Shown here: piece by piece, positions 21,352 through 25,454 of the stretch
Layout of the letters: every line of letters starts with the position of its first letter
Numbering within the stretch: the first letter of the stretch is position 1
Assembly: GCA_006503475.1 (NCBI GenBank)
Contig: RSEH01000087.1
Coordinates: 98,677-162,676 of the forward strand
DNA length: 64,000 bases
DNA from: Stentor roeselii
Lineage: Eukaryota > Ciliophora > Heterotrichea > Heterotrichida > Stentoridae
Direction: 5' to 3'
Made by a program: the position numbers and the translations under genes
Notes under the pieces: generated by a model
Database searches by the model: none
The model's input: the letters and a program-made list of their open reading frames with translations, nothing else
What the model was told of the DNA's origin: nothing

Positions 21352-22038
21352 ATGTCTTATGTGATAAAAATCAAAGAATACGAACTAGTTGGAGAGCATA
21401 TCGAGTACATCATCGAAGTAACACATAAAGAATCAGGAGATTCTTGGAGATTCCGCAGGCGATACAGTCACCTTCGCGACTTGCACAAGCAGCTGAAGTC
21501 CTTCGACAATCGAGTGCCTGAATTCCCTCCCAAGAAAATCTTCGGCAGTAAAAACCCGAGGTTCTTAGCTCAGCGCAAGTCAGAACTCGAAGACTACTTC
21601 AACGAAGTCGCAAAGCTTGGAAAACTACTGGAAAGTCAACCTGGCAAAGAGTTTTTCAAGCCAAAAGACGCGAATATCACTAAATCTTCCCCTGTTCAGA
21701 ATGTCCCGACTTATAAAAAACCAAAGCAAGGACCTGAAATGCAAAATTTCGTCAATCAGTTGAATGAAGTAGTTTCCAGCAAGTTTTTTGACCTTTCAGC
21801 ACAACCGAGTCCTCCAGATGAAGATGATGTGAAACGACAGGCAAGAGCTTTTGAGTCACTTATAAAGAATTTGAGGGTAAGTTTAAAGGAAAACTTGCCT
21901 GAAGGAAGTCATATCAACCAGCCTTACTTTTCAACGACTCTTGTTAGGCAAAAGTGGGTCAGACATGCTTTTAAGGAAACTAAGAAAGGTCTGAATGATG
22001 TGGAAGTACAACAGCACCTGCTTATTTCGTTTAAGTAA
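21352..22038 (+). CDS. PX-domain protein (C-terminus may extend to 22119)
   Basis: 228 residues to the first stop. A PX domain spans residues about 1-110: SWRFRRRYSHLRDLHKQL provides the phosphoinositide-binding Arg, then FPPKKIFGSKNPRFLAQRKSELEDYF gives the Pro loop and second Arg/Lys cluster. The rest is helical. Known: PX domains bind PI3P on endosomes, as in sorting nexins. After the TAA at 22036 the same frame stays open for 26 more codons with protein-like sequence (ELLKVFGRCFRKFDLYPEW) to a TAA at 22117. A short GT...TAG segment covering the first stop could be spliced out, but it would be 12 or 18 nt, not 15. Confidence 0.8.
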   Translation: MSYVIKIKEYELVGEHIEYIIEVTHKESGDSWRFRRRYSHLRDLHKQLKSFDNRVPEFPPKKIFGSKNPRFLAQRKSELEDYFNEVAKLGKLLESQPGKEFFKPKDANITKSSPVQNVPTYKKPKQGPEMQNFVNQLNEVVSSKFFDLSAQPSPPDEDDVKRQARAFESLIKNLRVSLKENLPEGSHINQPYFSTTLVRQKWVRHAFKETKKGLNDVEVQQHLLISFK

Positions 22039-22124
22039 GTTAATAGAGAATTACTCAAGGTTTTTGGAAGGTGTTTTAGAAAATTTGATCTTTATCCCGA
22101 ATGGCAAAATTTATTATAATTCTA

Positions 22125-22805
22125 ATGGGATGCTGTGAAGTCCACAGTTCTGACAACTACCTCTCTGTTACTCGACTTCATCCTTCGATTCTCATGAAAG
22201 AGAAAAGAAACTCAAGCCAGTCTAAACGGGTGAGATTCGAGATATCCTTCAACAACTACAAGAATTTAACTATTCAGGAAGAAGAGCCTCCTGACTGGTA
22301 CTCTTCAATCTTAAGTACTGACTTTTCAACTTGGGAAAAATATTCAAATAGCACTTTCGCTGATTTGTACTACATAGTGAATGATGGAAAACTCTTCACT
22401 GCTGTTAAGGTCGAGCTTACTTTTGAAATTAATCATGAAACGATTATTTGTCTTATAAATAATCCAAAATACAGAATCGCTTGGGACTTGAATCTTCGAA
22501 AAATGGAAATTTTATTTGGAGACTGCAGCCTTGACGCCATGATCGAGATGATAGAGATGGGCAATGAATCTATCAAGCTTCTTGAAAGAAAAGTTCGGAA
22601 ATTCGGAGACTCTGTCTGTTGTTTTTATGTTCCTCTTAAAGATGAAACCCTTGACAGTTACTTTTTAGTTTCGTTGATTGAGAAAAAAACAATTGTTTGT
22701 TATTTCAAAGAAAACTTAGAAGAGGACTTTTTGCCTCTTGTTAACCAGAAACTCTTGTGGGCCACTCGGCTCATTGAAGAGGTTTTAATCTATAAAAAGA
22801 ATTAA
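22125..22805 (+). CDS. START-like lipid-binding protein (tentative), possible N-myristoylation
   Basis: About 226 residues from the ATG that gives MGCCEVHSS. An earlier in-frame ATG at 22101 would add MAKFIIIL. MGCC is preferred because Gly2 plus Cys3/Cys4 looks like a lipidation site, and because the preceding PX frame may run to 22119. The body resembles a START/Bet-v1-type helix-grip fold: TFADLYYIVNDGKLFTAVKVE, then INNPKYRIAWDLNLRKMEIL (typical WD..... motif), a central sheet and a long C-terminal helix. The lipid is unknown. The stop TAA is directly followed by the next gene's ATG. Confidence 0.55.
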   Translation: MGCCEVHSSDNYLSVTRLHPSILMKEKRNSSQSKRVRFEISFNNYKNLTIQEEEPPDWYSSILSTDFSTWEKYSNSTFADLYYIVNDGKLFTAVKVELTFEINHETIICLINNPKYRIAWDLNLRKMEILFGDCSLDAMIEMIEMGNESIKLLERKVRKFGDSVCCFYVPLKDETLDSYFLVSLIEKKTIVCYFKENLEEDFLPLVNQKLLWATRLIEEVLIYKKN

Positions 22806-23891
22806 ATGAATAGAATTTTAAGTTCTCAAGAATTAGCTCAAGTTTTAAAGGCTGGGGCAAGACCTTCATTTAAAGATTTGAAGGAAATGAAAGGAATTGT
22901 TGAGGTTGTCGTCACTTTGATGATGGAAACTGAAAATCTTTCAGAGATTCGACAAGGGGTTGATGAAATTGGAGCTATTTGGAGGATTTTTTCGATTAGA
23001 GCTGTGAACTGGGAACTTCTTCGTGATTCGGAGATTTTTGAAGGTGTTTTGAATGGACTTGAATTTGTGTTGAAGGTGTTAAGGGAAGGGAAAAAGGTTT
23101 TTGTTCATTGTGCTGCTGGATTTCATAGGACTGGATTTTTTTTGTATGTTTTAATACGACTTATGGGATTGTCAGTCAATGAAACTTTAAAGACTATTCA
23201 TGAAATACGACCTTTAGTCCTTTTGAAAGCTGGGAAACATCGACTTGAACTAGGTGAAAAATTTTACCAGTTTTGTAATTACCAGTCTGTACTCTTTCCT
23301 TTTTATCGAGTGCCGGATATTAGACTAGGAGATTTTTTGAACCCTGAATTGCCAGTTTTCGCTTTTTTTAAAGTTTTCTTTGAAGATGACTTTGAGATGA
23401 ACGAGTTTACAAATATTGAAAAACCTGGAAAATTAGTAAAAATTCAATACTCTTGCACAACTTTTAACTTTTACAAGTTCGTTCTTGGAGGTGAACTTTA
23501 TGTCAGAACAGGTGAAAACTTTTGTTGGAAAGGAAAAAGAAAAGTAAGTCAAAGTGGAAATTCAGAATTTATAGTAAGAGGAACTCAGTCTGTCCAAAAC
23601 AAAGAAGTCCAAAGATTTGACGGTGAAGTGAAAGAGATGGAAGAAGCTGATTTGATTTTAGATGAATTTTTGACGAGTTCCACTGAAAATACTGAAATTG
23701 TGCTTGTTGGGTATCAGTCTTTCTTTGATCTTGAGTTTTTTTCGAAGTGCTGTCCTCGGGTGCATCGAAGGTTAAACTCCAGGATCATTGATTTGAAGAC
23801 TTTCAGGATTTTTGGAATGACTGGCAAGTGTTACAATATTTACGATGACTTGAGAATGTGCGTAGATTTAAGGAAATTGATTTTAAAATAA
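22806..23891 (+). CDS. Dual-specificity phosphatase fused to an oligoribonuclease-like exonuclease domain
   Basis: 361 residues in one frame. Residues 1-160 form a DSP/PTP domain: the P-loop HCAAGFHRTG at 101-110 has Cys102 and Arg108. Residues 185-360 match Orn/REXO2 of the DEDD exonucleases in order: DFEMNEF (Asp195, Glu197; compare DLEMTGL), VGYQSFFDLEFF (Asp308), PRVHRRLNSRIIDLKTF (compare YRIIDVST), and YNIYDDLR (Asp347/348; compare HRALDDI). The DEDDh catalytic His is replaced by Tyr343. The two domains together would handle phospho-substrates and very short RNAs. I know of no such pairing, though I cannot search. ATG begins on the base after the upstream stop, behind CTATAAAAAG. Confidence 0.75.
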   Translation: MNRILSSQELAQVLKAGARPSFKDLKEMKGIVEVVVTLMMETENLSEIRQGVDEIGAIWRIFSIRAVNWELLRDSEIFEGVLNGLEFVLKVLREGKKVFVHCAAGFHRTGFFLYVLIRLMGLSVNETLKTIHEIRPLVLLKAGKHRLELGEKFYQFCNYQSVLFPFYRVPDIRLGDFLNPELPVFAFFKVFFEDDFEMNEFTNIEKPGKLVKIQYSCTTFNFYKFVLGGELYVRTGENFCWKGKRKVSQSGNSEFIVRGTQSVQNKEVQRFDGEVKEMEEADLILDEFLTSSTENTEIVLVGYQSFFDLEFFSKCCPRVHRRLNSRIIDLKTFRIFGMTGKCYNIYDDLRMCVDLRKLILK

Positions 23892-24140: not shown

Positions 24141-25454
24141 ATGAAAATATTATCAGTCCTATTCCGCACTCTGTTGATCTCAAGCATCCAGTCCTTCATA
24201 ATCGGTCTTCAAGTGATCCTGTCATCTGTAAAACTCGGGCAAGTCGGCGAAGAAGAAGAAAAAATGCTACTAAAAACAGAATTTCTGCACTTTTTAGGTT
24301 CAATTTCCGCCCTTCTGTTTATATCCATGCAAACCTCATCAAGCTGTAAAAACCCCATCACAACTTTTTCAATACTAATGGTAATCTCTATTCAGCTCGT
24401 GACTTTCATTCTCTTCTTCGTATTGTTACCTTTAAACCACTCTTTCTTCGAATTTTCCTTCATTTTCTGCATACTTTTTGAAAGGTTCTTCGAAGGTGTT
24501 TGGCTTATATCAAGTTTTTCACTACTAGTTCTTGAAAACTGGGAAAATTCAGGATTTTTTTTAATCTTTTTGTCATTTTTGGTGAAAGTTTGTTATCTTG
24601 TAGGAGTGAATTCTTTTATCATCATCTTAGAAGGTTTTGAATTTTCAATCATTTATCCTTTAGCTGTTGTTATTTTCATCTTTGGGATAGTCACTTGTTC
24701 GACGTGCATTCAAGACCTGATCAATTCAAGAAACCTTGAAGAAAAAGACCCAGCTACTTGGAATCAAATAACAAGATGCACAGTAATTCATATTCAGGGC
24801 TTCAATTTTAACTTAGCAAATCTTTTTTACTCGTTTTTCTGTTACTTCTTGATAATCATCTGTATCGAAAAAGAAGAAGAATCCTTTTCTGACTTAAAAT
24901 TTTACAAGTTTTTTGGAACTTTCATTGGAGTCTTCTTCGGCTTGATGATTGTTTTCTTTTTACTCAGGACTTGTCTCAGGTTTAGAATTTTAGCGAATTT
25001 TGGAATGATTTTAATGGGAACTTCTGTAATTGTTTGGAGTTTCGTTGATTCTAATCAATTTCAAAAGGTTTCTTTTTATGTCGCTCTTTTGGCGACTACT
25101 GGGTTTTTAATGAACGCGATTTTGATTATTCGAGATATTTTTACAAATTGCAGAAATCAGATGATTTTTACGAATTATTTACAGCTGAGCTTGAAACTTT
25201 CAGCGATTTTTTATGTTTCTTTTGTGTTTGCAGAGAGTTTGGCTTATTCTTTACATTATTTGAATCCACAGGTGGTTAAAGTTTATTTTTTTAAGGTTTT
25301 GGCGGCATTTTGCTTTGCTTTAGCTGTTGTTGCTGAGATTAAAAATCGTGGCTTTTTGGAAAAGAGGGAGTTAAGGATGTTTGCGAGGAACTCTAGTAGT
25401 ATTGGAGAGCTTGTGATTAAGGGAAGCGAGGTTCAACTTGAAGATGGTAAGTAG
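24141..25454 (+). CDS. Polytopic membrane protein, unknown
   Basis: 437 residues with roughly ten to twelve hydrophobic segments. The first helix holds LISSIQSFIIGLQVIL and the last FFKVLAAFCFALAVVAEI. A short acidic loop (GEEEEKM) follows TM1, and a Ser-rich hydrophilic tail ends the protein. Segment number and spacing recall MFS-type carriers, but no MFS signature is visible. The 5' half uses C-ending codons and the 3' half T/G-ending ones. Confidence 0.7.
   Translation: MKILSVLFRTLLISSIQSFIIGLQVILSSVKLGQVGEEEEKMLLKTEFLHFLGSISALLFISMQTSSSCKNPITTFSILMVISIQLVTFILFFVLLPLNHSFFEFSFIFCILFERFFEGVWLISSFSLLVLENWENSGFFLIFLSFLVKVCYLVGVNSFIIILEGFEFSIIYPLAVVIFIFGIVTCSTCIQDLINSRNLEEKDPATWNQITRCTVIHIQGFNFNLANLFYSFFCYFLIIICIEKEEESFSDLKFYKFFGTFIGVFFGLMIVFFLLRTCLRFRILANFGMILMGTSVIVWSFVDSNQFQKVSFYVALLATTGFLMNAILIIRDIFTNCRNQMIFTNYLQLSLKLSAIFYVSFVFAESLAYSLHYLNPQVVKVYFFKVLAAFCFALAVVAEIKNRGFLEKRELRMFARNSSSIGELVIKGSEVQLEDGK

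Follow-up and report, generated by a model that had tools for sequence, protein, structure and literature searches.

Introduction

Oligoribonuclease (Orn) and REXO2 are diribonucleases of the DEDDh type (NCBIfam PRK05359; PDB 6sty, 6j80 and 6n6i). In Orn, as described in PMC6613908, Trp61 and Tyr129 lie to either side of the bases, with Leu18 as a wedge between the bases themselves, and the 5′-phosphate is capped by Ser108, Arg130, Ser135 and the hydroxyl of Tyr129. Here we describe a gene at positions 22806..23891 (+) of a 64,000-nucleotide stretch of DNA (the window) from the ciliate Stentor roeselii (GenBank assembly GCA_006503475.1, contig RSEH01000087.1, positions 98,677 to 162,676). Its product is very probably a phosphatase fused to an Orn-derived, catalytically dead domain, which we call the C-half.

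Non-catalytic domains of the DEDD fold occur elsewhere; Maelstrom, for instance, has an RNase H-like DEDD fold whose catalytic residues are lost. Unlike Maelstrom, the protein described here has Orn as the parent and a phosphatase as the partner. No description of a phosphatase-oligoribonuclease fusion was found in the open-licence literature, judged by title and the start of the abstract, and on the same basis the papers joining oligoribonuclease and tyrosine phosphatase dealt with other subjects. By the same measure, oligoribonuclease as a pseudoenzyme appears in that literature only in connection with viral ExoN domains, and nothing was found there on Stentor coeruleus together with dual-specificity phosphatase (DSP). 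The parts are already known; what is new is the combination of phosphatase and Orn, and the changed site.

Results

The fused frame and its phosphatase half

The frame at 22806..23891 (+) and the fusion within it are real. The single frame runs for 361 codons to a TAA stop, as the initial annotation had it, and its start Met is common to the relative P0013. The comparisons below use an alignment and profile made from 25 fused relatives, with no Orn among them; P0006, P0007 and P0009, which are near copies of P0001, P0004 and P0003, were left out, as were P0033 and P0045, which are short before the P-loop. In all of the aligned sequences, even at only 21% identity with the window protein, one frame runs through both halves, in support of the proposed joining of a DSP or protein tyrosine phosphatase (PTP) to an Orn-like domain.

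Residues 9 to 160, approximately (22830..23285, +), are by their sequence a cysteine phosphatase domain of the DSP/PTP fold with an intact P-loop. The PTP fold was found in this half, and the P-loop HCAAGFHRTG first read from the DNA was confirmed at residues 101–110 (23106..23135, +): H, C, A, A, G, H, R, T and G are invariant in 25/25, the C and R of CX5R among them, and the CX5R loop of the window protein is intact. Compared with DSP/PTP-fold phosphatases (Pfam DSPc and Y_phosphatase3; Tk-PTP, 5z5a), the family has no conserved Asp in columns 59–74, where the general acid is expected (at most 7/25, in column 74, as read without residue-level superposition), and it has an Asn68 invariant among the 25 members in addition to the C-terminal Orn-derived domain. 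DSP-only relatives, such as P0042 from Aliikangiella marina and P0035, which eukprot labels Rmarinus, are closely related to the phosphatase half and share an HCAAGIHRTG loop, but have no long C-terminal half, their sequence beyond the P-loop not exceeding 168 residues.

Oligoribonuclease ancestry of the C-half

The C-half (residues ~179–361; 23340..23888, +) derives, by the family profile and the predicted fold, from an oligoribonuclease of the Orn/REXO2 type. When the profile of the 25 relatives was compared with the PDB, REXO2/Orn were the best matches, human REXO2 coming first with E 2.4e-12, and the first phosphatase followed behind them only at 4.4e-7. An Orn profile run over the organism's own genome (44.4 Mb, 522 contigs) found two places, an intact Orn (E 9.8e-49) and the locus of paralog P0001 (E 0.0013). 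Taken singly, 7 of the 25 members match Orn at E <= 0.01, the best at 4.7e-8. The predicted model of the whole chain has a predicted local distance difference test score (pLDDT) of 88.8 and a predicted template modelling score (pTM) of 0.87; for the C-half alone these are 85.4 and 0.82, and the first 29 structural matches of the latter model are only Orn/REXO2.

Results with the window protein by itself weigh against this ancestry. The C-half of the window protein alone has no match in Pfam, the window protein reaches an insignificant E of 0.14 with the NCBIfam oligoribonuclease model, and in local alignment with the host Orn 185 of 500 shuffles did equally well or better. With a cut-off of E <= 0.01, none of the 25 members hits Pfam RNase_T, for which the host Orn scores E 1.4e-21. 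The claim that residues 185–360 are Orn-like therefore stands for the family profile and for the structure prediction, in which the Orn/REXO2 fold was matched, and does not stand for the window sequence alone.

Apparent loss of the nuclease site

The nuclease active site of the C-half appears to be lost. In the profile alignment the family sequence 'vwvkvlft' lies opposite 'VWVDLEMT' of REXO2. The column of Orn Asp12 holds K18 R5 N1 E1 and no Asp in the 25 members, the window protein having Lys189 (23370..23372, +; placed by the family column counts and the profile alignment); that of Glu14 holds F9 T7 L3 I2 V2 S1 K1 and no Glu, with Phe191 in the window protein. At the Asp112 position the members have D18 E7, here Asp308 (23727..23729, +), and at the probable Asp163 position D13 E9 N1 L1 Q1, here Asp348 (23847..23849, +), which was placed by sequence pattern and a helix start at 345, without residue-level superposition. 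The general-base column of His158 contains no His (0/25), and the window protein has Tyr343 there, so the reported Tyr in place of the catalytic His is correct. The three positions Lys189, Asp308 and Asp348 are each kept in 11/11 members of clade I, the branch of the family tree that includes the window protein. The motifs noted initially in this half lie at residues 302–312 (GYQSFFDLEFF), 326–332 (RIIDLKT) and 346–350 (YDDLR).

Because Asp12 is replaced by Lys or Arg in 23/25 and neither Glu14 nor the general-base His is retained, we read the C-half as a pseudonuclease whose metal site has been rewired: Lys/Arg stands at the Asp12 position, and the acids at Asp112, and probably at Asp163, remain. 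The C-half family has homology and fold in common with Orn/REXO2, but differs in its motif I Lys/Phe, the lost His, a phosphate cap that is mostly gone, and its placement behind a phosphatase.

Some details count against this assignment. P0024 has a His one column later than the His158 column. The identification of Asp348 with Asp163 is pattern-based; going by the end points, which are all that the structure aligner prints, this match could equally be displaced by roughly one turn of the helix. As for motif I, an ungapped reading from the first aligned pair in the five matches checked (6j80, 6n6i, 6n6a, 6rk6 and 2igi) would put Asp12 at C-half residues 12–15; in this numbering Lys189 is residue 14 and Asp195 is residue 20.

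Gene family and tree

At E <= 0.01 we found 42 related proteins, 27 with a long C-terminal half (at least 219 residues after the P-loop) and 15 without (168 or fewer); in this division P0006, P0007 and P0009 are represented by P0001, P0004 and P0003, and P0047 was judged separately. One relative (P0027) is from Blepharisma stoltei. The fused family has five members in its own genome, where Pfam DSPc has 90 matches, so it is a small part of the DSPs. They lie on contigs C513 (the window) and C417, across C195 and C66, and as a neighbouring pair on C69. The ends of C195 (L003) and C66 (L006) share 77 identical bases, at which the two contigs probably join.

The second member on C69 (L013 1435-2421, -) lies beside P0003 and matches P0020 at 3.2e-34. 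It has no Pfam match and only a weak direct one to the window protein (E 0.015). In our own alignment INYKSRIAKS replaces HCAAGIHRTG, and the Orn-like half is kept. Its sequence suggests a tandem paralog with a destroyed P-loop, a candidate for a protein dead in both halves.

In a tree of 39 DSP halves, clade I consists of 11 fused proteins (support 99/99), and clade II (support 89/86) of 14 fused proteins among which two DSP-only ones, P0030 and P0031, are nested. Three changes of the label fused or DSP-only are needed on the tree, at least two of them forced by starred branches. A single fusion followed by later loss is possible on this tree, and the gene models of P0030 and P0031 may be incomplete. 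A search with residues 178–341 of P0020 for a stand-alone or otherwise fused C-half returned itself and P0024 only, from 55 candidates; such a search reaches close relatives only. A scan of bacterial and archaeal contigs with one P-loop peptide pattern gave 18 loci, whose matches lie within the DSP half except for L021, where the match extends to query residue 217. Pfam searches of 10 neighbouring ORFs (open reading frames) at 8 of the 18 loci found no common theme.

Discussion

Most likely the C-half serves the phosphatase as a module for binding or pairing. A mainly structural or dimerising function is plausible; binding of a short 5′-phosphorylated nucleotide or RNA end is a more tentative proposal, and a function of some other kind is to be put at about the same level. 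We propose that the Orn-derived domain would keep the shape of Orn, and perhaps its dimer, and that the conserved Lys would pair with the two remaining acids, neutralising them as the metal ions once did. The domain would then be a non-catalytic module for dimerisation and for binding a ligand or RNA end, placing or regulating the phosphatase. Its ancestry hints that the ligand might be a 5′-phosphorylated nucleotide or RNA end.

Retention of pocket residues, compared with the Orn residues listed above, differs by position. The equivalent of Trp61 is kept in 10/11 members of clade I and in all 14 of clade II, and that of Arg130 in 8/11 and 3/14; for Tyr129 the counts are 5/11 and 0/14, for Ser135 5/11 and 6/14, and for Ser108 1/11 and 1/14. 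At Ser108, Arg130, Ser135 and Tyr129 the window protein has Gln304, Arg326, Lys331 and Ser325, so its cap is mostly lost and the Arg alone is kept. More of it survives in the paralog P0001, where the equivalents of Tyr129, Arg130 and Ser135 are present. The retained Trp and Arg are compatible with ligand binding. They are the only tabulated Orn ligand residues whose equivalents are kept in the window protein, and a strict dinucleotide-sensor reading is weakened by this. A fuller version of the binding proposal, in which a captured dinucleotide-degrading enzyme has exchanged its metals for the conserved Lys and become a receptor for 5′-phosphorylated nano-RNA or RNA ends, by which the linked phosphatase is switched or aimed, is unlikely. 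An RNA 5′-end phosphatase, whose DSP half would remove 5′ phosphates with the RNA end kept in place by the dead Orn half, we consider no more probable than that.

A decaying Orn half, without a role and carried along with the phosphatase, is very unlikely. It would suit clade II, where the C-half is the less conserved half in both pairs compared (phosphatase half against C-half, 74.4 vs 44.6% and 59.9 vs 33.3% identity) and where P0030 and P0031 are nested, though the latter count for less if their gene models are incomplete. This lower conservation also counts against our main reading; the C-half of clade II may have a weaker function. Against a relic, the C-half is slightly more conserved in two of the four clade I pairs (44.5 vs 47.8% and 83.3 vs 86.8%), although less so in the other two (40.9 vs 31.6% and 54.9 vs 45.8%); the Lys and the two acids of the old site are constant throughout clade I; and the paralog with the destroyed P-loop retains its C-half.

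A still active nuclease would require that DFEM (residues 195–198) provide Asp195 and Glu197 as a working motif I, together with Asp308 and Asp348 and with Tyr343 as the general base. This is highly improbable, despite the window sequence alone, which aligns with the host Orn at a score of 5 in the DFEM register and -7 in the Lys189 register, a point against our own placement of motif I, and despite the distance between DFEM and the strand after it, which by hand count is near that in the host Orn. DFEM borders an insert of 13-14 residues (196–209; 23391..23432, +) that starts inside the motif; the segment holding FEM is a gap in 24/25 members at columns 196–199, including the nearest relative P0013, and the flanks align without it. 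The near copy P0007, 99% identical and outside the 25, also has the insert beside DFEM. In the models the first strand ends at 192–193, and DFEM falls in the following loop, where pLDDT is about 61–67. The absence of His from the general-base column likewise argues against activity. Since DFEM is not motif I of Orn, the statement of the initial annotation that the four acidic residues are kept fails: the aligned motif I is Lys189/Phe191. An annotation based on DFEM would have given an active exonuclease.

That two adjacent genes were read as one frame is next to negligible as an explanation, for although gene limits are tight here, with the TAA of the upstream ORF immediately before the target's ATG, the relatives share the frame and the whole-chain model scores as highly as given above.

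Surroundings and gene model

The upstream ORF (22101-22805, +; 234 residues) ends with its TAA at 22805, directly next to the ATG of the target, and has no Pfam match. It has a single genomic paralog, which lies on C137 and is 41% identical; the ORF that follows there runs on the opposite strand and does not encode a DSP. On inspection of the sequence by eye, no intron of 15 or 16 nucleotides that would remove the intervening TAA was seen. Further out lie a PX-domain protein (21352-22038, +; Pfam PX, E 1.6e-15) and a hydrophobic ORF of 437 residues (24141-25454, +), which has no Pfam match and by eye is probably multi-spanning.

In Blepharisma stoltei, according to PMC9942806, introns are mostly 15–16 bp and UGA is read as Trp. 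That code is unlikely here because TGA ends 2 of the 6 genes checked. Strings of the form GTAA..AG with a length of 15 nucleotides occur 49 times where resampled sequence has about 31, a higher count than for any other of the 20 lengths tried; together with the relative from B. stoltei, this points to a probable heterotrich source. One string of 15 nucleotides within the gene, GTAAGAGGAACTCAG (23574..23588, +), is a candidate in-frame intron, possibly of heterotrich type; its removal would leave 356 residues, the five lost ones falling in a stretch of low model confidence (blocks 251–270). It is the sole GTA..AG string of 15 or 16 nucleotides in the gene, which disfavours the insert beside DFEM as an unspliced intron.

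Biological implications

The fusion shows clearly that an enzyme of RNA decay has been taken on, beside a phosphatase, as a module that apparently does no catalysis. The conserved change from Asp to Lys/Arg provides a direct test of the passage from a two-metal nuclease to a pseudoenzyme. Should very short RNA still bind to the module, phosphatase signalling in a eukaryote would be tied to the final step of RNA breakdown, and if such binding also gated the phosphatase, those breakdown products would serve the cell as a signal.
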